Part shown: positions 1 to 63,835 of the stretch, piece by piece
Position numbering within the stretch: the stretch's first letter is position 1
Layout: every line of letters begins with the position of its first letter
Assembly: GCF_037975245.1 (NCBI RefSeq)
Contig: NC_092572.1
Location: forward strand, 24,771,989 to 24,835,988
From: Apostichopus japonicus
Taxonomy: Eukaryota > Echinodermata > Holothuroidea > Aspidochirotida > Stichopodidae
Length of the DNA: 64,000 nt
Direction: 5' to 3'
Program-made: the position numbers and the translations under genes
The notes under the pieces: model-generated
The model's database searches: none
Told to the model about the DNA's origin: nothing
What the model saw: the letters and a program-made list of their open reading frames with translations, nothing else

Positions 1-3000
1 TAGAAAATAGCATGTTATTGGGATATTACCTCAACCTCTTCGCAATTTGAGGATCTTCGTCTTCTTATTTTTCTTCTTTTGCGGACTAGAATAAAATAAA
101 TAGTAATATATGGTAATATATCAACAACGAAACAATTATGTAAAAGATCTGCACAATGTCATTTTCATATTAGTGACAAGATTCCTATAGGTACAACATT
201 TTTTTTTCTAATCTTAATCTTAATCGTGAGAATTTAGAGCCAAGTACATACTTCTCTGAATGAATTTTTCACAATGTCGATAAATAAAATATTCATTCTC
301 TCAAGACGATAAAGTCTACAAGCACACAATGTGGTTGTCGTACATCACGATTTAAATGCCATTCTGTACACATGAGTGATAAAAAGGTATTATTTTAACC
401 ATCTGAAACCACAGACTTCTTAAAGTTTCATCTATAAAATTGATAGTGGAAAATATTTGGTTTTAGAATCTTTACATTAAATGAAATGTGGGAAAAGTTG
501 CATACTTTTGTGATAATATATGAAAATTATGTCACATGTTACTATCTTACCAACATTACCTTTTGTGAAAATAATAACAACGGAGATCGCCGCAATGACA
601 ACGAAAGCAAACGAAGCTAACATAACAACCGTGAGATGATTAACATCTTTCAGTTTACTTCCAAATACTGCATCGTTTGGCTCATTTATTGGAGGATCTG
701 TTGAGAAAGGATATTAATAACATTAAAATAATAATCAGAATTTTATTTTACGACATTTAAGCGACCACAATAATTGGAGAAACCCGCAAAGGCTTATGGC
801 TTACACGTCGAATGGCTTCCAATTCAACAATTTAACTCAAATTTGGAATCTTTCAATTTAGTAAGTCCTTTCAGATGGGAAAACGTTAATTTTTCTTGGA
901 TAAGAAACCCACCTTAATATGACCCGGTTAATATAGATTGTTCTACATAGTTTGCAGCGTATTGTTAATTACAAATTTACAAATTACCTTACTAATAAAC
1001 CATATCACATCGACTAACATGTTGCTCTATTGATATAGTATCTTTTTCTGCCATATTTTAATCCTACTGTTTTACTAACAACTCTTACATATTTTACTTT
1101 TATTTTCCTTGGCATATCTTTAAATTAATGAAACTCTGTTACTAAATAGCAACATATGGTTGCCAGTTTGTGTAAAACCATTTACAAAAGACGGGGTACC
1201 GTACCACAATTTCGGGAATTACATCTTCAGCCTTCATTGTGACATTCAAAACCGACATCTTTGTACTTGAGTCAAGCTTGGCTTACAAAGAATGACTCGT
1301 TGCTTTTCCTTCACAGTGAAACATAATCCATGCTACCTTTTGTCTTAAAAGCTTCAGTGGTGCAATTTAAACAGGATTTGATAAAATATTGAATAATGGT
1401 TACCAACTTACCATCTATGAAAATGGCCTGAAACTTCCTTGACGCTTCAAATAAGTGAGCGTGGGATCCAGCCACTGCACACTCTAACACCAGTGGCTCT
1501 TTTGTAAGTGCTTTATGTTTATACGTGGAAGTGAGCGTGATGTCAAATGTCACACCATCAGTTGAAACTTGTTTCTTCTCTTCGAAAAAGTGTATCATCG
1601 AGGATTGAGTACCGTGAGACGTTTTCCAAGTGAGATCCACTTCTGGACGTACACCGAAGAGTGAACAAGTTAGGTTACCTGTGACGCCCACTTCAATTGC
1701 ACAATATATACCTGGTTTACACCCTTTAATATCGATGTAAAAAGGCTCCGGAATTACTAGTAAGAAATAAAAATACAAAAAGAATACGTGTAAAACTAAC
1801 CGTACGTAATTTCAAGGATGTTCCTTTTGTTTTAGTCCAATCGATATATAAAAATGTATCCTTAAGGCAAAAATAAAAACAAATGTTCCTTCGAAATGCA
1901 GAAAAAAAGTATTACAAGATAACTACAAATGTTGAGGGTAGTATAGGTTTACTGGTAATGCATGTACTGCATACCTGACTAACATATACATCTGTATAGC
2001 AATATTGCAACTAGAAATGAATATTCTAGATTCAGATCACGAAACTTACCATAAACAAACAGCTGGTACTTGTTGACACTGTCTGTGAATCCATCATGAA
2101 ATATGCATGCATATGTGCCTTCATCTTCCACCTGTACTGCTTCTGTCGTTAGGACCCCATTCCCTTCCAATCGAAAATCTGTCGATAATTCGGTGATGGC
2201 TTTCTCTCCTATAAATGTTAATACCACCAGATCGACAACTTGGTTTTTCGAATACTTTTTCCACACTACGTAACTAATTGTTCTATTTGAACAGACCATT
2301 TCCATTCGGTTGTCTTGTTTGACCCAAAGTTTGATGGGATCTGTGGCAATTTCTCGCCACTTTTTAGAGAGCAGGATAATGGAAGAGCGATTATTTTGAA
2401 GTAGTTCAGACGGACAAGTAGATTTGCAGCTAAACAGCATCAGTAAATTCGAATCAAAATCATTAATTTCGATTGATGAATTTGAGTCATAAGTACCCCC
2501 TTCTTTTGGAGCAGATGTTTCTAGTGATGTGATGTTTATCTCTCCTTGTGAGGTTATGTGAGTCCAGTGAAGTAAGACGGACGGTTTAGCTCCTTCAACA
2601 GAACAGACGATGCGAGCAGATCCTGGGTCCTCTAATAAACAAAGCCTGCTCTCGCTACCGCATTTGTCAATGACAGGAAAGTCCACAGAAGGTTTTACTA
2701 GAAAAAGATAACACAAGTATTTATATTTTACAATGCATGTTTTGACAAAGTGACACTTTAAATAAAGAATACACAACCTGTTTAACATGTTTTTCATCTG
2801 TTGCAAAACCTAATGTTGCTCATTAATATGCTAGAGAGCCGTTACGTTTCGATCCTAGCCGGATTTTCTTCAAAGGTAAACTGATACAAACAAACAAAAG
2901 ACAGAGATAACACAAAGAACAGCTTAACATAAGACAAGACCAAGTTTACAGTGCTAATCCCAACTGATTGGGTCATGAAAGATATCAACATACACTACTT

Positions 3001-5084
3001 TCACTATGCCTTTGGTTGCCTCCACACCACTTTAAACACCAATTCCTACGTCTTCGTCACATTTGCTCTAATAGGCTCAATTTCCTTCAATTTGCATAGA
3101 CAAAGATCCTCGTCTCTAAAGGACAAAAAGCCAAAAAATTATTCTTAGTCCTGGACGAGACACCCATGAGAACTGATAACAAAAATGTCACCCCTCTTGT
3201 AATTTTCCACCACATTCAACTTCTCTTTCACCAAATTCCTGACAACTGTAATCACATTCGCCATACATAATATCATTACAAAGCTCTCTAAGAAATATAT
3301 CATTGCCTACATACACCGTTTGTGAAATGTAATGTGTGCTTGCCAAAACTGCTGCTTCATTAATGTTCAGAACGTTACTTGCAAATGATTGCTTCTTCAT
3401 GTTGTATTCTTTGCAGGTTCCAGATTTCAGAATATACTTCTTTCAGTTGTCACAGAAACCAGGATGCGTATAAGTCAAAAGGTTACAACACTTGAATATT
3501 ATAATCTCTAAGATATTTTATATTATGTCTAAATAAGGTCCTTAGTATACAATTTTCTGCTGGAACCAAAGCAAAGACAAGTCGCTCGTAAGAGACGTTT
3601 CTATGGCTACTGGTTCAGAGTCGTCACAGCATATAGACTGAAAAATTAATGGAATTTCAATTGCAGTTTAAATGATGTACACAAGAAATTTGTCAGCGAA
3701 TAAACTGGAATCAAATAAACGTGATTCTGTTATTTAAAGGACTCCTTGCTTCCCAGAAATGTTTGAAACCTTAATTACTGTCTATCAAAAGAGTACCCAA
3801 CTTACTAATCTCACTCTGTTGCTTGTTTCAAAAGGATGTTTCAACACAAATGTCATGAAATTGTTATCCTTCAGTCTACTTACCGATGGTGATTACTCTA
3901 ACAATGTGATTTGTTGGAATTTCTGACTGTATCTTGAAGAATACTACTGTGAAATGTTGTTCGTGTCTAATATTGACTTGGTTTATAATCAAAGAACCAT
4001 TCGGATAAATATCATATTCTCCTGAAAGGTAGCCCACACCAGATTTTTCGTTCTCTTTGAAGTTCAGAATCGGTCGATCGTTCACCAGGTCTGTAGAGTT
4101 ATACCAAAAGACGCCGTGGAATCCTGCACTAAATGAGCAATTCAACATGCCGGTTTTATGAAGTTCCAAGTACTGTGTAGGTTCACATGCAGTAGTAAGG
4201 GCTCCATCTGAAATGATAGATATTTGATATACAACAGTTGTTAAGGTTTGATCACATTTAATAACGTGGTGGCCAATTGGCTAAGGATTCGGACTTGTGA
4301 TCCAATGATTGCTGATTCGATTCTTGCACAGTTAATTACGGTGTGTCATTAGGCAAAGATCTTAAATACCTCTATCCATACAGGGGTGAAATGGGTATCT
4401 GTGAAGTAACTTGTCACTGGGAGCAGTATATAACTGCATCTGCCTGGAGGTATTGTCTCTAGGACAGGTTATCATTGGCCAGGGGTATTATAACGTTTGT
4501 AAAGTTCTTTGAAGCAACATACATCTATTATATTTATTTTATATTTATGATATTTTTATTATTAGGGGGTATAAGACACATCAAGGGCGATGGGCACCGT
4601 AGTGTGAACGCTGGCGAATTAACAGTAACTACGAGCAGACTCCATAATCGTGATCTACATTCCGGGAGGATATTTATATCCCGTAAGGCCTATAACGTAT
4701 ATCAAATGAAGTATATCAATCTTTTCTGCTCTTGTTACAGCTTGTAATTTGGTAGTGATGGCTTTGTAATGTTAGTGTGTTCGTCCCTTATTTAAACTGT
4801 CTCCCATCCTTTTCTTTACAGTGGTTACTTTCAAATGTCGATTAATGACGACCATATATAAGGCAGTGTAAAACCCATAGACATGATACACACGCCATCC
4901 CTGATGATTCCCTGAACTGCTGAGCACAAACGGAAACAAAGTCGATTAACTGAAAAATGTGGGGAACAAACTAGGTTTCTTTAGAGTTGAAGCAAGAAAT
5001 ATGTAATAACGATATATTATAATTACCTGTATAGTGAAGCAATGTAATTGCAAGAATTCCCACAAGCAAGTACATCGTGTCCAT
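1..5084 (-). CDS. Ig-domain transmembrane receptor, paralogue of the Ig-TM-NACHT gene at the right end (partial; runs off the left edge)
   Basis: A predicted type I membrane receptor. Exons in coding order are 5084-5027 (signal peptide, MDTMYLLVGILAITLLHYTG), 4207-3884 (Ig-like 1), 2697-2050 (Ig-like 2 and 3), 1756-1412 (Ig-like 4), 697-560 (membrane helix) and 85-30 (basic tail, VRKRRKIRRRR). Every internal join is phase 1 up to the last exon, which ends in phase 0. The Ig exons show paired Cys with a central Trp or Tyr core, for example CSFSAGFHGVFWY and CSLFGVRPEVDLTW, and many N-glycosylation sequons. Exon order, sizes (324 and 345 nt) and sequence match the gene at 54483-63835, where the equivalent tail exon is followed by a NACHT domain. 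The cytoplasmic effector of this copy lies beyond base 1. Start, signal peptide and splice sites are seen directly. Function as an immune receptor is inference. Confidence 0.8.
560..697 (-). CDS. Transmembrane exon of the left-edge Ig receptor
   Basis: This 46-codon exon joins in phase 1 on both sides. It encodes a short polar stalk (DPPINEPNDAVFGSKLKD) and then a roughly 23-residue hydrophobic helix around MLASFAFVVIAAISVVIIF that ends at a Lys. The next exon at 85-30 is strongly basic, the usual positive-inside stop-transfer signal, so the C-terminus is predicted to be cytoplasmic. Confidence 0.8.
741..930 (-). repeat. SINE-like interspersed repeat (3' body), intron of the left receptor
   Basis: On the minus strand this stretch repeats the body of the tRNA-like SINE at 15040-15310. 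The shared order is GGGTCATA, then a GGTGG and TTATCCAAGA block, TTTTCCCATCTGAAA, ACTAAATTGAAA, TTGTTGAATTGGAAGCCA and a C-rich end. The tRNA-like head is not clear in this copy. It lies between the transmembrane exon and the fourth Ig exon. Confidence 0.6.
2050..2697 (-). CDS. Exon encoding the second and third Ig-like domains of the left receptor
   Basis: A single 216-codon exon, phase 1 at both ends, holds two Ig-like units. The first runs from VKPSVDFPVIDKCG through IVCSVEGAKPSVLLHW to LLMLFSCKS. The second runs through MEMVCSNRTISYVVWKK to DEGTYACIFHDG, which is the classic D-x-G-x-Y-x-C strand-F motif. The same two-in-one exon occurs at 62158-62799. Two Ig domains sharing one exon is a family trait here. 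Confidence 0.82.
2770..3000 (-). mobile_element. Degenerate Penelope-like terminal fragment with decayed hammerhead-like motif (2838-2876)
   Basis: On the minus strand 2838-2876 reads as a damaged version of the motif seen intact at 40418-40457: GAAGA, a GATCC-like hairpin arm, GGCTAGGATCGAAACGT. The flank TAGAGAGCC next to it also flanks the copy at 40637-40676. It sits in the intron between the first and second Ig exons. The rest of the element body is not recognisable. Confidence 0.5.
4266..4520 (+). mobile_element. tRNA-derived SINE
   Basis: The head resembles a tRNA gene: GGTGGCCAATTGGCTAAGG matches an A box, and GATTCGATTC near 4314 matches a B box (GGTTCGATTCC type). A non-tRNA body and an AT-rich tail near 4520-4550 follow. 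The insertion lies in the first intron of the left receptor gene, in opposite orientation. It is not a functional tRNA, because acceptor and anticodon stems do not close. Confidence 0.65.
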
Positions 5085-27300: not shown

Positions 27301-27651
27301 AAGCAAAGCATTAATAAAGGTTGCTTAATTATTAACTCCGTAAAATCAAGTAACTGTCATTCTTAATATTGCTTACAAAATGCAATCACTTTCGTTTTAA
27401 GCTAAGAAAGAAATATTACGACTTCATTATAGCAGATTGAAGTATGACAATCGTTGTAGTGAAAGGATGGCGAAATCCATCGATAATCAATATTGAACAA
27501 ATAACATACTGCTATCTGTGTCTTTGCGAATACTGGAAGTTTAAGTTCTGGAATGTTTGAAATGTATATTTTATATTTGCGAAAACCACTTTTGACGAAG
27601 AGTTAAAAGTTGTATTAAGGATTACAATTTTTTGGGTATAAAGATTTCACA
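24302..27651. other. Intergenic region between divergent genes
   Basis: About 3.3 kb separate the start of the small minus-strand propeller gene from the start of the plus-strand receptor. This is the only divergent promoter interval in the window. I see no coding exon. The open frame 25678-25986 has no domain or splice support. No clear TATA element could be tied to either start. Confidence 0.4.
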
Positions 27652-38098
<10,447 letters not shown>

Positions 38099-54482: not shown

Positions 54483-56797
54483 TCAAGTATGATGTGTATA
54501 ATACGTTATATGAATAAATATAAAATAAGTTAGATGAATATCACGCACTAAAGGCAACATCTGCTTTAGTTTTGTAATGGCGGTTTTTGCAAGTGCCAAA
54601 TATGACGGATGATATCTCATTGATACAGATGTGCTATACACGATGGTTGGGTTGAGATTAAAGTCTGCAGATGACTGTATGGATATTTCTTGGCAATTAG
54701 CTCTAACATACAACATGCGTTGATCCTACCAAAACAAAAATGTCACGATTCAACATCATGACATTTACTAAAAAATAAGTTGAATAATAAATTATATCTA
54801 ATCATCATATAGCAAATTGTAAGAAGAACATAAGCATGACATTGACATTTTCAACCCAAATCATTTAACATTCAGCTCGTTTAACTTTACGGCGTAATAT
54901 CTCATTCATTTGTCCCATCTAAAGCACAGCCGTGTCATTAATGATTAGTAAGAAGTCACACCACTCATTGAAAACAATGTCTACAGGACGGTATAACCTA
55001 TATTATGATTCAAAGCATACATTTGCAATGCAATTTGACGAAACGATTTCATCTCTAGGCTTCTTTCTGTATAAACTGTTGCAAAATGCTGTCATGCATC
55101 ATTTCAGATCGCTGGAAATGTCGTTCAGTTGTACAAATTTAGATCGTGAATCTGCCAGTAGTTGCCCGCGATGTATTACTGTGTACCTATCCGTGAACGC
55201 TGCCATGGGGTTTCTCTGGAGAATAAAAAAAAGTAGAGCCGATCATGAAATAAGAGACCTGTCTGAGATCCAAAACACAAACTTGTTTGGCAGCGAGTTC
55301 CGATTCTTATGTAACCATAGTGTTTTCAACTTATCCATTTGTTCAAAGTTTCATCTTATGTTTCCTTTCAACACGTATTGGTTGAAACAAAGAAGAGTGT
55401 CAATTTGATATGCATATGGACTATATATGAGGACTTTGAGCAGTCTTAATATTGCTGTAATAGTTATTGAATTATTACTCTTTTATTTAATTCAAGAGAT
55501 TTCTGTTTTGTGAGCAAAATGAGATAACTTTGCAGATTACTTACCGCCATTCATCGCGAAATCTAACAAACTTTATAGGAAGTAAACAGAGAAACAAAGA
55601 TATAACTAGTGGAATATTCAAGTGATGATGAAAGTTCCTAGCGTTAGCAAGACACTACGCTAATAAAACGTACCAAGGCATTACAAACAATCCTTATCAC
55701 ATCATGGTTTTATATAAATTTGTTACTTTCTTTTCAAGTAGTCTTAAAATTAAGTTCATAAAAACTCTGCAAACTTTACCGTTGCTTTTATAAATATATA
55801 ATATAATATATTTATATTACCGTACTTAGGTGTTAAAGAGATTTGTTGCTTATGGCTATGCTTCTCAACGCGACGATTTTGCCTTCGGAGATACCTATAC
55901 AGGCAGCCATTTTCTTTCTATGTCCCAATTTTGCAAAATTGCTGAAATAATAACTAAAGTTTTAGATATATTTGTGAATTTAATATTATTTACCTCTGCC
56001 TGGTATTGTTCATCGGTTACCATATCACCACCACGTTTTTGCTTTAGTGAAGAAAGTGAAACGAGGAAAATCACCATGATTGTTGTTATTGTCTGAATCG
56101 ATCACGTTAAGAATTTCATATAACAAATTATATGTTGCATTTATAGCTTAAAATGACAAATGACATGATAAATGACGATATTTTCATTAAAACACTTCCG
56201 ACACTCAAGCAGTTTAGTAGAAATCATTGCTCACCTTCCATTTTCCGGTTGAATCGAGACGGTACCAAAATGAAATAGGTATCCACAATACTGTTGATGG
56301 AAACATAATTGAAATATTATTTTATGTGGATTCGTTCTGACTAAGTGTTTAATGCATAAAGGCTTCTACATAAATGTATCTTAAAAACAACAACAACGTT
56401 CAGATCTACTCACACACGGGAATATCTAAATTATTCATTCTTACTGACCGCTGTATAACAACTTTGCTAACTATAATTGTTAATTGTTAATGTTCTTTTT
56501 TTTTTATAATTTATCTAGAGTTTGTAACAGTAGAGCATGCACTGACGTACATTAAATATTATATACACATACGAGGAATTATTAGCTTGCATTTACTTCT
56601 AATCGTATTGTGTATTTTCTCTCGTAGTTCAGTTTGGTCTTAATTTTCCTCTTTTTTAATTGTTTTTGGTGATACTAAAACACAAGATAAGGATAACAAA
56701 GAGAAAATGCCCTGTACCACGAATGTTCTTCTGTTGAAGTTGAGTCAAAATGTAAGTATCTTCGAATCCATCTTCTGGTAGCCAGCAACATTCAAAC
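54483..56797 (-). CDS. Tentative 3' exons of the Ig-NACHT gene
   Basis: Candidate exons 56797-56718 (FECCWLPEDGFEDTYILTQL, LRR-like and in phase with 57022), 56290-56235, 56041-55994 (QKRGGDMVTDEQYQAE) and 54725-54483 (YLALAKTAITKLKQMLPL, ending in a stop). Phases fit end to end, but the small exons have no domain support and some could be chance. Confidence 0.4.
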
Positions 56798-59700
56798 CTG
56801 GAAGAAAATGCAGTTTTGTAAAACATGGATGGTTAAAAAGCGTATGATAGAAAGAACATAAGGGCAGTACCTGTGTATTTCTTACGAGAGCAAACGATAT
56901 CAAGTTCAAAATGGTAGTGATTGCGACCTTTGCAATTCTAAAGATTACCGTCAGACCTTTACTTATAGCGTAGAAATTCAAACGGGTCTGCCTATAATGA
57001 TGAGTTGCGAACTTAACTTACTCCACTTTTTTTAGGTCTCTGCAGCAAAGTATGTACTTCAACATGTTCCGCGTTTCTTCAGTAGAGAACTCTCGTCCAA
57101 TTTCCGTTATTTTAAGGCATTTAATGTAAGTCAATTTGCTAACTTGTAGACCCGACGTTAAATGAATTATTCCTCCTGTCGTGTCCGCGTGATGTAGACA
57201 ATCTTCAAGATGTAAGCATTTAGTTTGAATCTACGCAGTAAATAAACGTTAACAGTTATGTGAAATTGGTGTTACAGGGTGATATAAAGTTTAATTCACT
57301 CACACACTCATTCTGATTTGATTCAAAAGAGGATACAATAAGAAAAAAAGCATGTCCATTACAAGATCAGACGTATTAAAAGTAAATGAATGGCTAATTT
57401 ATTTATTGCTCAAATCGAAGAATCTTTCGAAATAATTGTGTATGCTTAATGAATGAATAAAATCTAGTCTAATGTACTTACCTCAAGTTTACGCGCGATG
57501 TCAATTAACTGTAATGTAGATCTCTGAAGAAGCTTGCTGCTGTCCTTACTTAAGAGAACTGTCTCTAAGCAAAGTTCTTGAACATTTTCTTTAATCTTTT
57601 CAATTTCATCTGTTGTTTCAAGCAAGCAAAGAATTGCAAATTTGTCACCATCTTTAAGGCTTTGCAGGTATTTAATAATCCTGGGAGCCACTTCTGGATT
57701 AAGCCCACATGCAAATCGATAAACATATTGGAGATTAAACGGGTCTAACCGACCCATCACTTGAGCTAATTCAAAATCTGATATTTGCACTATATATTTG
57801 GAAAGGAAAGTCGCAGCATACCATTCACAAAACAGTTTGTGATGGAATCTTACTTCAGTAGTTTCTTGAATATGCTCGGAATCTGAAATACCAGGCTTAT
57901 CTATGATATTGGTTACATCTTCAGCCACCAAAATACCAATTCTTATAAAGTTTGAATAAACTTCCTCTTCTACTACCGCTAACATTTCTTGTTTGTTCCA
58001 AGTTATCTTTTCTTCTACTGCAGACAGCCCATTAAACGCCAGTTCATCCATACTTACATGCGATTTTCCAAATGCACGAATCTTGTCAGTATTATTATTA
58101 TTATCTTTGTTGTCTTCATGGCCATAAAAGCACGATACAATATACCGGAAGAAGGCAGTAACGGAGTGAAACGTTACTTGGTCATCCCGTTTATAAATTA
58201 TATGAGCATACATTGAGAAAAACAAAGGTACTACCATAAATTCACCAATAATTGGACTTTCCTCCATACGCTGTTTTATTCGTTCTGCGACATTTGGATC
58301 ATCTTTAACCGCCTTACGAATATATTCATTCCTCGCGTTCGCATCGAAGCCTAACAATCTAGCAAAGGATGTATTTGGCGCTAGTTCCTTAGGAAGAACA
58401 TTTGACCTTGTTGTTAATATGACTAAAGAATTTTGAAACATAGATCTTTTTATGATATTACATATATCGGTTTCTTCATTCCGATTAGGAAACTCATCAT
58501 AACCATCGAAAAAGAAGACGACAGATGGGCTCTTTTGAAGAATCCATTTTACGTCATTGTCGTCTAGGGCGGTGTCCGTCGGAAGCAAAATGTGTTTTAT
58601 TGCGTGGAATATGGATTTTACACCTTTAAGTCGTCTGAGGCGAAGAAAAATTAGTATGTCTACGTGTTTGAGGGGTGATTTTGAGTTTCCTGTACACCAC
58701 TCATACACCAACTGAAGAGCAAGAGTTGATTTTCCCTGTCCAGGATCACCTTCTACAACTCGTAAGAATGACGTTATTGGAGATTTTTTCACGACTAGAC
58801 ACTGATAAGATTCAAGAACATTCCAGTTAGGCTGTCCTCTTACTCCAGTCAAAGTCTGAAGCTCCATACAGCCTTCTACAAAAATATCGCCTATGCCAAA
58901 TATTCCGTCTCGAATGAAAGGAACTGGTCGTATAGTGCTGTACTGGTTTTCGTAAGTTGTTTTCATTTGTTGAATAAACATTGCAATTTTCTCTGAGGGA
59001 AGCAACAGAAGAAAATTTGTATTACTTTACCAGCCACCAACGTTTGGTGATGATATCTTAATTACTGTAATGTTGGCTAACTAAATGTTTGTTTGAATGG
59101 CATCACAGGATTGCTTAATACTAATAAAGTCAGCAAATGATTTGCTAATTCGGTTATAAATTGAACCAATCTCCTTGGTCGATTGTAAAGCGTGTTTGTA
59201 ATCGTCTGGAAACAGTTCAGTCTTGTAAGTTTCACAAGATGGTCATTTTGTTTTGTCAAGTGCATGCACTACTGCAACTAAGGACTGTAAACTATAACAT
59301 TTCCTGAATATGCTAAAAGGGAAACATCACGTGAGTTAAATTGTTAAATAATAATAATTACCAAAGAAAAACAATCATGAATTATTTCCGTTTTTTGTTA
59401 AGCTTTTTATCTGTGTCAAAACATTATAATATAAGCAGATGGGTTATTTTGAAACGTGACTGGTATTGTGTCATCGGAATTCATCATCAACGTATAACAT
59501 TTTCCAATAAAGGAACGGGATTTGTGTTGTTGTACATGCAAAAATCTGCTATAGAATCAAATTGAAGGCAGCTGGAAGAAAAATACATGATGAAATTAAT
59601 AATACCTGAGACGCCGTTTGTATTGCCGGGCAGCATTGTGTTAAGCTAAAGTTGTAAATATAAAAAAGAAATATTCTTAGAAAAACACTTGGTTTTATTA

Positions 59701-62700
59701 TTATTGCTTTTTCTTGGCTTAAATGTTTATTGATATTAAAGAAAATCGTATAACATACGAATAAATTTAGATGCGATTGTTCCTGAACGGAAAAACATTT
59801 AAAAAAAGTTAAAGTATTGAACTTGATTCTTCAAAACCAAAAGCCACATATATTCCTGCAACTTCTCAACCGTTTTAGTACACACGATGGCGCTACAAAC
59901 AGCGGTTACTACTGACTACTAACATACACGAAATGTTAGCTAATATAATGTTGAAGAGTTCAAGACGTGTCTAGACAAAACATTACTAAATAAGACCAAC
60001 TTTCGTCCGCTACAATTATCAACGAGATCAATTTAAGTAATAATTCTCAGTGTTTGTTTACTTACTTCAGTTTTTTCGGGGTCTTCTATGCTTGTCCTAC
60101 TTTTCCTGAAGTAAACTACGTGAGAAAGAAACAAATGAAAGAAAATAAGAACCAAGTTACGAACGATGATGTTATAGTTGTCGACACCAATTGTCATACA
60201 ATGCAATTTAATCCTGAACAAAATGTAATTCCAATGTTATTGTTAGGTTGCAAGAACACATTTCATGTTTAGCATATCATGAGTGTAAAGTAGTGTTGTA
60301 ATATAACAATACACTACACATACAAGTCCTGTACATTACCTCTGAATATTACAGCAGCAATAATCAAAATGATAATTACAACTGCAGTAGGAACCAAAAT
60401 AATCGGTAACAAATGTCCCGGCTTTCCAACCGTTTCAACTGTGGACGGTTGTTGGCTGTGGCGTAGACTGGATGTTGTAGAGATTACAGGGTCTGCATGA
60501 ATAAAAAAGTAACCAAGTCATTTCTTATAGTAATGCATAAACAGTTTAAGTATGCACAAATTTTTGAGACTTTCTCAATCCTTTTAAGATATGAAAAAAT
60601 TAATCTAAAAAAAATTCAAAGACTTATGACAATAATGACGACAATGGCGATTACGATATTCATAACGATGGCGATGATCATGTCCAAGACCAGAACCGTT
60701 ACCATGAAGACAATGAAGACAGTGACGGCGATGAAGGGGGTTATGGATGACATGATTTACAAGAAGGTAATTAACTTATTGTATATCATATAATACAACC
60801 TACTTCCGAGGATAAGTAAGTCAAATTCCGTCGACCACTGTGGTATTTCACTGGTTGATCCATCTGTATCACAAACCAACGTCAATCTGGATACATCGTT
60901 TGTAATAATCTTGAAAGTAGAAGTTAGCACAACGTCAAATGTGTTGCCTTTCGATACAACTTCTACTTCTTTTTTGGAAAAGGATATGGCAGTTGAATGT
61001 TTTGCGTAAAGCGTTCTCCAGCTAAGCGTAACCTTTGGTCGTATTCCATGCAAAGAACATGTTAATATTCCTTCTTGATGAACTTTTAAGACACAATATT
61101 GGTCAGCTCTGCAACCATTAATGACAGGATACGCAGGAATTGGATTAACTACAAAGAGAAGAAAAAACAACCCTCTGTCACGAACGCTGGCATGACGTAC
61201 ATTTGGGGTCGTGGACCGGGGGTGGGGTGGGGGGGGGGGGAGGTCGGAGTTACACACAGTGAAATCACAAGTTAATCTCAATTTGAAGCATAGTCGGTCT
61301 GGAACTATCACCATGCTCTGACACCCATGAACGTAACAGTAATACAAACAAAGCAAAAACGTGTCTTCCTGTTCCCCACTAAAGGAATTCGGCTCCAATT
61401 TTTTTAAATCGGCATTGGTTTGTGACCGACGTATACTTATCACTACATCTACATTTCTAAGATGAAGGTAATGTTCGTCCAGCGAAATGGAATAGCATCG
61501 GGGCTTTCTCCCCTTTACCTCGAACGGGGCCTTAAGCTGTAGCTTTCGATGGATTTTACCCTTGGCCCCCACTCGTTACTCTTATACATTCCAGAGATAT
61601 GTTTCTCTCTGACAACGGATTTAGTGGTTTAAAGTCGCTTGAGACAACACGAAATATTTTCAAATGCTATGCATTCGGGAGAAAGTAATATCCACTCTCA
61701 CCCATGTATTTTTTTTGTGCTTTAAACTTGCTTGGAATTAACACGACATAATAAAATACTTTCGCTACCAGGAAATTCCCCTCCTAGAAACCTCACTACG
61801 ACTTGCGATTTATAGTAATTCCTCTTTCTTACATCAAATGCAGCTTCCAGAAAGTTGCCTCCACTACATCCCCCTTCACTCCCCCCCCCCACACTTTTCA
61901 ACCTCTCCCACCTGTGCTTCTAGTCAATGACAGTGTTCGTTGTAAAATGTGGAAACACTTAGTTGGTTATTCCGATAAGTTGCTCGGCCAGTCATTACAG
62001 TCAATCCCAAAGATCTAGTCGGTGTCGAAATTGGTTTACACCTATTGCAAAATGGTGAATGTATACCACTGGATGTGGATAATCTTTCACGCTATTGCTT
62101 ATAGAAATAAATGTCAAGAAATGAAATTGAAATAGCTGTCAATAACAGCTTACTTACTGTACACATACAGGTGGTACAAAGCAATGTGATCTGTTATACC
62201 GTCACTGTAAATACAAGCGTATAGGCCTTCGTGTTGTGTTTGCACGTGTTGTGTAGTTAAAGCACCATTTCCATCAAGCTCAAAGTAGTCCGTGGTAGCA
62301 TTCTCAAAGTACTTATTGATAAAAATTGCATAACCGAGATTCTCAAATCTGTTGTCATAAAGTCTTCTCCAGATTAGGAAAGATTTCTGCTCTTCAGTAC
62401 ATGTTATTGTCACCACTGCATTTTCCTCAGCAGCGATCTCATTGGTAGTTGTTGTTGTATAGTCCATGCTTCCATGCAATAGTAAAATCGAAGACTCGTT
62501 ACAATAAAGAAAATGTGATGAATCGTTTGCTTTGCAAACCAAAAGCGACAATGAAGCTGCATCAAAATGATCGTCCATCATCAGTGAAGAAGAGATAAAT
62601 GTCACATTATCCTTTATAACCGATTTAGCTTGTGTTGTCATGTATTTGTCCCCTGCTTCACTGCGTTTCGTCCAGTAGGGGTCGACTTTTGGTCGTGAAT

Positions 62701-63835
62701 GTATAGAACATTTGACTTCACTTTCACGTTTTATTTCTTGTGTGCACACTTGCTTGTCTTCCCCGCATAAGTTAATGACTGGACATCCGGAAGGTTTGAC
62801 TGTTAAATATTAGTATATATTGTATTAATATTAGAAAATATAGTGCAAGATATGCTTGTATATATTCGCTTTTTTGATAGACATCATCCCGAGTATTAAT
62901 GCTATTAGAAATTAACATTATGGTGTTTTATTGAATTCATTCTAAATATAATTTTGGCAATCCGATGATTGTAGCAGAATTTATTGGTCAATTTCTTTAC
63001 TCTATGGCATGATAAGAAAATTTTGATTCTATGATAAGTGCGATGATTCAACTTTATCCATCGAGGGCACTTTATTATGTTCTCAATTAGATCTATTAAA
63101 TAAAAAGTATATATTACGTCATATCAAATTTGCGTAACAAGTCATCTGGTACACAACTTATACTGACGAAGGTTTAAATAATAAAGTTTGTATCAATTAT
63201 TTTCTTATAGGAAACCGACTTAACATATTAACGATACATGTGGTGTGTGGATGTAAAATACAATTAAGCATGTAATAATTGTAAAGTTATTCTCACCTGT
63301 AGTAATGACATCTACATGATATGTTATTGGTTCTTCAAATTCTGAATTAAATATCAATACCGCGAATGTTCTCTCGTGTGCCAAGACAATGTTCTCTATT
63401 AACAGCGAGCCATCAACATCAACTGCATACATACCGTTGTCACAACCACCACTTGACTGCTCGGCACTTATGCAACTTACAATTGGTTTACCTTGTACAG
63501 TGTCCATGGAGTCATACCAATGAATTGCATGGAAACCGATGTCAAATGAGCATTTTATGGTTCCTTTTCGTCCTAATTCAAGATATTGTCTCGGTTCGCA
63601 GTCATTGTTAACATCTGCGTCTGCGTGGATAAATATGAAGCAATTGAAGCAAAATAGATCTTTATAATATAGTAATGAAATGTCAATTATATTCATTTTT
63701 TATGCTTAGTTTATGAGAATACATTCGATTTAAGGCATTCAACGTACTATAAAACAAACAAGATATAAGGAAAAAAAACTCACTAGAAATTACAAGGACA
63801 GCTAGAAGTCCAAGAATACGTAATGTGCTATCCAT
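54483..63835 (-). CDS. Ig - transmembrane - NACHT - LRR receptor (predicted about 1250 aa)
   Basis: Exons: 63835-63784 (signal peptide, MDSTLRILGLLAVLVISS), 63620-63297 (Ig 1), 62799-62158 (Ig 2 and 3), 61148-60804 (Ig 4), 60492-60340 (membrane helix), 60115-60066 (basic tail), 59645-59606 (linker), 58992-57482 (NACHT), 57230-57022 (LRR-like), then tentative 56797-56718, 56290-56235, 56041-55994 and 54725-54483. All phases agree. The Ig half predicts extracellular recognition; the NACHT half (GDPGQGKST, FFDGYDE) predicts a cytoplasmic nucleotide-driven oligomerisation switch. A good splice acceptor directly before the linker exon, in the phase left by the tail exon, links the two halves. They could instead be two adjacent genes, with NACHT translation starting at 59636. 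No Death, CARD or TIR domain is seen. The fusion is inferred from splice logic. Confidence 0.72.
57022..57230 (-). CDS. LRR-like exon following the NACHT exon
   Basis: 209 nt, from phase 0 to phase 2. The text TKCLHLEDCLHHADTTGG, LTYIKCLKITEIGREF and YILCCRDLKKVE has the L-x-x-L-x-L-x-x-C rhythm of animal NLR leucine-rich repeats. It follows NACHT as in canonical NLRs. Confidence 0.65.
57482..58992 (-). CDS. NACHT ATPase exon
   Basis: One 1511-nt exon, from phase 1 to phase 0. Walker A is EGDPGQGKST. Walker B is SVVFFFDGYDE with the extended acidic pair. A sensor-like LVILTTRSN follows. The winged-helix-side motif VRFHHKLFCEWYAATFLSK corresponds to the F-x-H-x-x-F-Q-E-x-x-A-A of animal NLRs. 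All nucleotide-binding residues are present, so it is predicted active. Upstream text (YENQYSTIRPVPFIRDG) resembles the linker before NACHT in many invertebrate NLRs. No Death fold precedes it. Confidence 0.93.
59606..60115 (-). CDS. Two small exons linking the receptor tail to NACHT
   Basis: 60115-60066 (VYFRKSRTSIEDPEKTE) has its acceptor at CGTAG and ends in phase 0 at a GTAAGT donor. 59645-59606 begins after TTTACAACTTTAG in phase 0 (LNTMLPGNTNGVS) and passes phase 1 to the NACHT exon at 58992. The first matches the basic tail exon at 85-30 of the paralogue (VRKRRKIRRRRSSNCEEVE) in place and phase. These two exons decide whether this is one gene or two. Confidence 0.65.
60340..60492 (-). 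CDS. Transmembrane exon of the Ig-NACHT receptor
   Basis: 51 codons, phase 1-1. It has a Ser/Thr/Gln stalk (ISTTSSLRHSQQPSTVE) and then LLPIILVPTAVVIIILIIAA, VIF and Arg. Confidence 0.85.
60620..60745. repeat. Low-complexity GAT/GAC-rich tract in an intron
   Basis: A cryptic trinucleotide repeat (GAC, GAT, GGC) between the transmembrane and fourth Ig exons. The plus translation is Asp-rich, but no coding context exists. Confidence 0.6.
60804..61148 (-). CDS. Fourth Ig-like exon of the Ig-NACHT receptor
   Basis: 345 nt, the same length as 1756-1412 in the paralogue, phase 1-1. It contains PVINGCRADQYCVLK, GILTCSLHGIRPKVTLSWRT and VSRLTLVCDTDG. The donor is A-GTAGGT. The frame stays open through the upstream intron to 61572, see findings. 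Confidence 0.82.
61218..61243. repeat. G-rich tract in an intron
   Basis: GGGGGTGGGGTGG followed by a run of twelve G on the plus strand (C-rich on the sense strand). It sits about 70 bp upstream of the acceptor of the fourth Ig exon, so it forms part of a long C-tract there. Confidence 0.8.
62158..62799 (-). CDS. Exon for the second and third Ig-like domains of the Ig-NACHT receptor
   Basis: 214 codons, phase 1-1. It contains VKPSGCPVINLCGEDKQ, EVKCSIHSRPKVDPYWTK, then AVVTITCTEEQKSFLIWRR and HEGLYACIYSDG. It is the direct counterpart of 2697-2050 (VKPSVDFPVIDKCG; DEGTYACIFHDG). Confidence 0.85.
63297..63620 (-). CDS. First Ig-like exon of the Ig-NACHT receptor
   Basis: 324 nt, identical in length to 4207-3884, phase 1-1. 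It contains CEPRQYLELGRKGTIKCSF, GFHAIHWYDSMD and GMYAVDVDGSLLIENI. The paralogue gives CEPTQYLELHKTGMLNCSF. The paired Cys of the strand-F side is not obvious, so this is a non-canonical Ig-like fold. Confidence 0.82.

Follow-up and report, generated by a model that had tools for sequence, protein, structure and literature searches.

An Apostichopus japonicus gene predicted to join immunoglobulin-type units, a membrane helix and a NACHT domain in one receptor

Does a sea cucumber locus in which exons for immunoglobulin (Ig)-type units, a membrane segment and a NACHT domain follow one another on one strand encode a single receptor, and is such a receptor new? The question arises in a window of 64,000 nucleotides of Apostichopus japonicus (contig NC_092572.1), which is the whole stretch of DNA analysed here. 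A preliminary description of it had proposed a membrane-bound NLR in one polypeptide, with a domain order that it did not know as a described family. Vertebrate NLRC4 and NOD2 are cytosolic, with an N-terminal CARD and a long LRR. We consider it probable that the locus is a single intact gene for a type I membrane receptor resembling AjNLRC4, a published protein of A. japonicus. Its product would begin with a leader and four extracellular Ig-type units, followed by a single membrane helix, some 54 residues of basic linker, and a NACHT-HD1-WHD-HD2 core with a short LRR-like region at its end; a Death-fold domain would be absent. The gene structure and the kinship in this reading are observed; the fold and topology are predicted.

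Gene model and predicted domains

The minus strand from 63835 to 55176 holds one gene of 8,660 bases, with 14 exons and 13 GT/AG introns in consistent phase. In the following list, P0001 is an uncharacterized A. japonicus protein, cited together with its structural model, P0008 is a further relative, and the second copy is another gene of the family in the window.

Exon 1, 63784..63835, minus: start codon and hydrophobic, signal-peptide-like leader (hydrophobic core score 3.4)
Exon 2, 63297..63620, minus: Ig-type unit 1, in phase 1 at both ends; alignment with the second copy starts at residue 1; Pfam V-set here in P0008
Exon 3, 62158..62799, minus: Ig-type units 2 and 3; unit 3 is Pfam V-set 246-338, unit 2 is C2-set_2 in P0008
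Exon 4, 60804..61148, minus: Ig-type unit 4; C2-set_2 above cut-off in the second copy, only 12.7 bits in the window gene; Ig fold in the P0001 model
Exon 5, 60340..60492, minus: stalk and single predicted membrane helix, the strongest hydrophobic stretch of the protein (3.34 at residue 485); helix 407-427 in the P0001 model
Exon 6, 60066..60115, minus: basic tail, ending in phase 0; present in P0001
Exon 7, 59606..59645, minus: short linker exon from tail to NACHT exon; junction residues present in P0001
Exon 8, 57482..58992, minus: NACHT, HD1, winged helix and HD2
Exon 9, 57022..57230, minus: start of the LRR-like C-terminal region; strands and helices alternate here in the model of P0001
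Exon 10, 56718..56797, minus: C-terminal region
Exon 11, 56235..56290, minus: C-terminal region, with conserved V-x-W and G-x-W residues that are invariant columns in a 12-row alignment
Exon 12, 55994..56041, minus: C-terminal region
Exon 13, 55545..55570, minus
Exon 14, 55176..55215, minus: contains the stop codon

The joint reading frame is open across 1191 codons, with no stop or frameshift, and gives a predicted protein of 1191 residues; the gene is real and intact, beyond chance. The borders proposed earlier (60115-60066, 59645-59606 and 58992) and their phases were confirmed by reading splice sites and frame. Each of exons 2 to 5 both starts and ends in phase 1. The tail exon (60115-60066) finishes in phase 0, and the next exon (59645-59606), entered through an AG acceptor, continues in frame and leaves the NACHT exon (58992-57482) to begin in phase 1. 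The upper end of the earlier span, 63835, is the start codon, but its lower end, 54483, lies too far, since the stop codon is at 55178-55176 (minus). The donors of the gene score between 4 and 8 out of 9, while 509 GTs have a mean score of 4.4; this is weak as evidence alone, so the case for the splice junctions rests on homology. P0001 is 94.2% identical to the window protein over 1111 aligned positions (1047 identical, one gap), crosses the same exon junctions and agrees with the short 3' exons; it is an orthologue or an allele-like copy. An alternative in-frame acceptor upstream of exon 12 (56092-56042, minus) would insert 17 residues (TITTIMVIFLVSLSSLK), most of them hydrophobic, close to the C-terminus, and P0001 is the shorter form at exon 12, without this extension.

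Two Pfam domains of the full protein are above cut-off, namely NACHT at 614-766 (E=1.7e-18) and V-set at 246-338 (E=1.5e-6). CARD, Death-fold and LRR gave no Pfam match at E up to 1 across all 1191 residues. The order of four Ig units, one membrane segment and NACHT, as first described, holds, with the limit that only the third of the four Ig-type units passes the Pfam cut-off in the window protein. The others are supported through relatives (the second copy passes for units 3 and 4, and P0008 for units 1 and 2) and through the P0001 model, which has confident strands across Ig units 2 to 4. The Ig fold in this model was likened structurally to CD166 and CD2, Ig superfamily surface receptors that share with the predicted protein a tandem Ig ectodomain and one membrane helix. 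CD166 and CD2 have no NACHT inside. Sequons occur at 190, 217, 226 and 292 in the predicted outer part; the inner part has two, at 742 and 835.

The inner part of the P0001 model has a NACHT-HD1-WHD-HD2 fold that superposes on soluble NLRC4, NOD2 and NLRP3. The predicted protein thereby resembles canonical animal NLRs, with NACHT detected by Pfam and HD1-WHD-HD2 modelled; it differs from them in having Ig units and a membrane segment instead of an N-terminal Death-fold match. The structural match extends to residues NLRC4 724 and NOD2 903, which we take to lie inside the LRR parts of those proteins, and suggests a short LRR-like C-terminal end. The earlier claim of an LRR holds in part at most: the model suggests a short LRR-like end, and Pfam detects no LRR.

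Relatives, membrane topology and competing readings

A first protein search found 134 proteins among 4,447 candidates, and the best 120 of the 134 were listed and all examined. A relative counted as fused when its alignment reached a coverage of 60% for the Ig part, 50% for the membrane part and 80% for NACHT. Such fusions number 54, while 51 proteins have NACHT and less than 10% of the Ig part, and 15 are of other kinds. The fused relatives comprise 16 from A. japonicus, 26 from H. leucospilota and 12 labelled 'lgn'. The last of these are 1072-1624 residues long, and the longest contigs of their clusters measure 3,802-9,644 bases. Because 11 of the 12 are shorter than the 8,660-base window gene, the contigs would contain few or no introns; we take the 'lgn' rows to be assembled read sets, and these 12 are best read as spliced transcripts. 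Together with the open frame and the same junction in P0001, the 54 proteins with both Ig and NACHT strongly support the prediction of a single polypeptide.

We also searched with the Ig half, a query of 522 residues, scoring only the 7,998 candidates that shared most words with it. Among its four matches, P0122 and P0123 have a Pfam NACHT, P0124 lacks a NACHT match but extends through to the same inner core, and P0121, a record flagged as partial, stops close to where the counterpart of exon 7 ends. No complete Ig-membrane protein ending before NACHT was thus found, although P0126, whose size falls within the range searched, escaped this search.

Several points weigh against the reading of a single one-pass Ig-NACHT receptor. 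The Ig-half search was not exhaustive, as P0126 surfaced in a later profile search, and P0126 itself (an 'lgn' protein on a contig of 6.4 kb) combines several Ig units with a membrane segment and a C-terminal region like that of the family, but Pfam detects no NACHT in it. The annotated start of P0001 lies 80 residues later than that of the window protein, at window-protein residue 81, and P0001 lacks a leader; for the leader and the N-terminal half of Ig unit 1 the support comes from the window sequence and from other homologues. Finally, AjNLRC4 has been reported with two membrane segments and its sister AjNLR-new with NACHT outside (PMC8699970, PMC13133943).

Such proteins as P0126 raise the possibility that the gene also yields shorter forms, which would either consist of the Ig-membrane part or lack the NACHT exon through skipping, and which would serve as decoys or docking receptors. 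P0126 could be a NACHT-skipping form, and the annotated relatives P0063, P0087 and P0112 align over only about one third of NACHT. However, annotated short forms may be gene-prediction errors; we consider such forms unlikely, though the least unlikely of the alternatives.

The topology is best considered by comparison with AjNLRC4. This A. japonicus protein has an Ig-like domain at 31-132, an Ig domain at 251-353, membrane segments at 483-503 and 776-795, and NACHT at 600-757 (PMC8699970). It was amplified and expressed as a single open reading frame and sits on the coelomocyte plasma membrane, where its Ig part binds microbes, including Vibrio (PMC8699970). Vibrio induces dimers, attributed to the Ig domains, and internalisation; the inner part binds actin, and knock-down reduces phagocytosis (PMC8699970). 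PMC11932488, which gives MN607598 as the accession of AjNLRC4, reports that its Ig part also binds a caspase. AjNLR-new is a sister protein with a reported inverse topology (PMC13133943).

The claim that this domain order belongs to no described family was therefore wrong, as AjNLRC4 has the same order and has been studied at the bench (PMC8699970). Three features of the AjNLRC4 type are found in the window protein, with Ig N-terminal to NACHT, a predicted membrane segment between them, and no CARD or LRR by Pfam. Positions are nearly the same as well, with V-set at 246-338, the membrane segment from about 483-485 and NACHT at 614-766. Two AjNLRC4 primers encode peptides that correspond to the starts of window Ig units 1 and 4. 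However, the AjNLRC4 paper gives two Ig domains, two membrane segments and no LRR, whereas the window protein has four Ig-type units, one predicted membrane segment and a short LRR-like end. We compared seven printed primer and small interfering RNA sequences, with restriction-site ends removed, to the window and to 20 shuffles. None of the seven matches the window with fewer than five mismatches, and we reject the idea that the window gene is AjNLRC4 itself; one beats the 20 shuffles, with six mismatches at the homologous place in exon 4, in a comparison that for protein covered the primer-encoded peptides only. AjNLRC4, described in PLoS Pathog in 2021 (PMC8699970), is reportedly also the subject of a 2020 paper in Dev Comp Immunol. 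The receptor kind is already published in sea cucumbers, and the window gene is a further member of a large family.

One gene with another topology, whether with two membrane segments, the arrangement published for AjNLRC4, or with an external NACHT, the one published for AjNLR-new, seems unlikely to us. In its favour are SMART and TMHMM predictions and cell labelling (PMC8699970, PMC13133943). The second segment of AjNLRC4 lies 19-38 residues after its NACHT (PMC8699970), a place that corresponds to residues 784-803 or so of the window protein and 704-723 of P0001. This region, with family consensus V-P-L-F-F-V-M-F-A-H, is fairly hydrophobic, at 1.76 in the window protein (below our membrane-segment cut-off of 1.9) and 2.01 in P0030. 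Nevertheless, P0030 is the only one of the 55 fused sequences (54 relatives and the window protein) with a second non-leader segment at cut-off. Moreover, the P0001 model has two helices here, 702-708 and 711-723, within the region that matches soluble NLRC4, NOD2 and NLRP3 in the superposition. Judged via the window protein and its P0001 counterpart, the reported second segment probably falls within a helix of the soluble NLR fold.

A non-leader hydrophobic segment is present in 54 of the 55 fused sequences, the exception being P0060, and K and R are commoner after the helix than before it in 51, which places positive charge on the NACHT side, with AjNLRC4 and AjNLR-new themselves compared by published description only. 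Between the helix and a P-x-P-[YFH] motif that precedes NACHT lie 44-88 residues (median 58) in 52 sequences, leaving out P0035 and P0060 (no motif after the helix pick) and P0017 (wrong pick). A leader-like core (score at least 2) occurs in 36 of the 54 fused relatives, and the annotated starts of the others may be wrong. We think that the receptor passes the membrane once, with NACHT inside; given the predicted leader and membrane helix, the window protein would not be cytosolic.

It could also be supposed that two adjacent genes, one for an Ig-membrane protein and one for a cytosolic NACHT protein, were wrongly joined. An in-frame ATG does lie inside exon 7, and reading on past exon 6 gives a short tail and a stop, with two poly(A)-like signals within the 420 bases of intron 6; however, such signals occur in 7 of the 13 introns (14 in 5,084 bases). 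Ig-less NACHT proteins are common (51 of the best 120 relatives) and the NACHT-less P0126 exists, but 42 of the 54 fusions come from two species, A. japonicus and H. leucospilota, and AjNLRC4 was obtained as one open reading frame. We regard two genes as very unlikely and reject them on the Ig-half search, within its limit of four matches from 7,998 scored candidates and the missed P0126. That the gene is a decayed, non-expressed copy is just as improbable in view of its 1191 codons free of stops and frameshifts, 13 of 13 GT/AG introns, and similar identity to P0001 in the Ig (0.94-0.99) and NACHT (0.94) parts.

Family diversity and other features of the window

A fast NACHT tree of 106 rows was built after 12 of the 118 alignable rows, partial or of mixed type, had been dropped. 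On this tree, which is rough and long-branched, the Ig-membrane label requires 10 changes, compared with 35.3 on average after shuffling. A 'deathlike' N-terminus label given by eye to 11 tree rows was not used, as Pfam finds no Death domain in P0071, one of them.

Ectodomains are more divergent than NACHT cores: of the 1361 pairs (out of 1485) with enough aligned positions, 1356 have lower identity in Ig than in NACHT-HD2, with medians of 0.33 and 0.49. P0014 and P0022 are 93% identical in NACHT and 42-60% in the Ig units, whereas the Ig identity between P0022 and P0035 is 86-93%. The opposite discordance is seen between P0024 and P0043, with 83-92% in units 2-4, 72% in HD1-HD2 and 19% in the C-terminal part. 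There is no Ig divergence excess between the window gene and P0001. Some of the discordance between Ig and NACHT may be gene-prediction error, and these sequence comparisons offer diversification or exchange of ectodomains as a lead.

Regarding breadth, the apodid sea cucumber Chiridota heheva, known here by description, has NLRs with an Ig V-set not seen in sea urchin NLRs, according to the available part of PMC8913654, while that of a ctenophore NACHT paper (PMC11797021) adds nothing on Ig-NACHT. No survey of the Ig-NACHT family across sea cucumber genomes was found in the titles and abstracts searched, with most subscription journals outside coverage. Our profile search was limited to top word-sharing candidates, gave 8 rows and does not bound the distribution. 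One of its proteins, P0128, has one Ig domain, NACHT and LRR_6, with no evident leader, and is probably an independent, different Ig-NACHT combination; another, P0127, is a mammalian hemicentin-like protein matched over 6% only.

The second copy lies near the other end of the window.

Second family gene, 30..5084, minus: leader, four Ig-type units, membrane segment and basic tail, with a GT donor in phase 0; cut by the end of the window
Its six exons, 5084-5027, 4207-3884, 2697-2050, 1756-1412, 697-560 and 85-30, minus: phases as in the window gene

Its exon sizes (58, 324, 648, 345, 138 and 56 bases) compare with 52, 324, 642, 345, 153 and 50 for the first six exons of the window gene. The two are 36% identical in protein over 464 aligned positions, and the second has a Pfam V-set (2.9e-9). 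Its visible part ends with the tail exon at the window edge, ahead of any NACHT exon; its nearest relatives among the proteins compared, P0003 and P0004, are both fusions.

Between the two Ig-NLR genes lie ZU5-bearing stretches at 41375-39901 and 10807-9819, minus (Pfam 6.3e-13 and 1.3e-10), each followed by an exon that by eye looks alike in both. Three long open stretches, at 51393-50557, 23760-22915 and 18114-17251, minus, weakly resemble beta-propeller or Kelch sequences, in each case under the Pfam cut-off, and are perhaps a repeated gene family. On the plus strand, 27619-36777 has Ig-like stretches and, about 6 kb later, a kinase-like stretch (Pfam PK_Tyr_Ser-Thr 7.6e-7); these may belong to a single gene for an Ig receptor kinase.

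Proposed mechanism and significance

Following published AjNLRC4 work, we propose that the Ig units would bind microbial surfaces on coelomocytes and that binding would cluster the receptor. Clustering would bring NACHT cores together beneath the membrane, and the assembled cores would recruit the actin machinery, leading to phagocytosis. Ligand binding might be coupled directly to NACHT oligomerisation, as the preliminary description had suggested; PMC8699970 attributes dimers to the Ig domains. We speculate that the switch could be nucleotide-driven NACHT oligomerisation, rather than Ig-driven dimerisation alone.

More tentatively, and with more doubt than confidence, sea cucumbers may have a large surface repertoire of one-pass Ig-NLRs. 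Variable Ig ectodomains on symmetric phase-1 exons would have diversified, and sometimes been exchanged, against a conserved NACHT engine, with NACHT-less partners, and ligand binding outside would directly cluster NACHT inside.

The locus provides an intact gene with exact exon borders for a receptor kind known so far, in the literature found, via two cloned genes. This receptor kind is a large family represented in two or more genera of sea cucumbers, and the published AjNLRC4 topology is likely in error. Whether binding outside directly switches the NACHT engine becomes a testable question at this locus.

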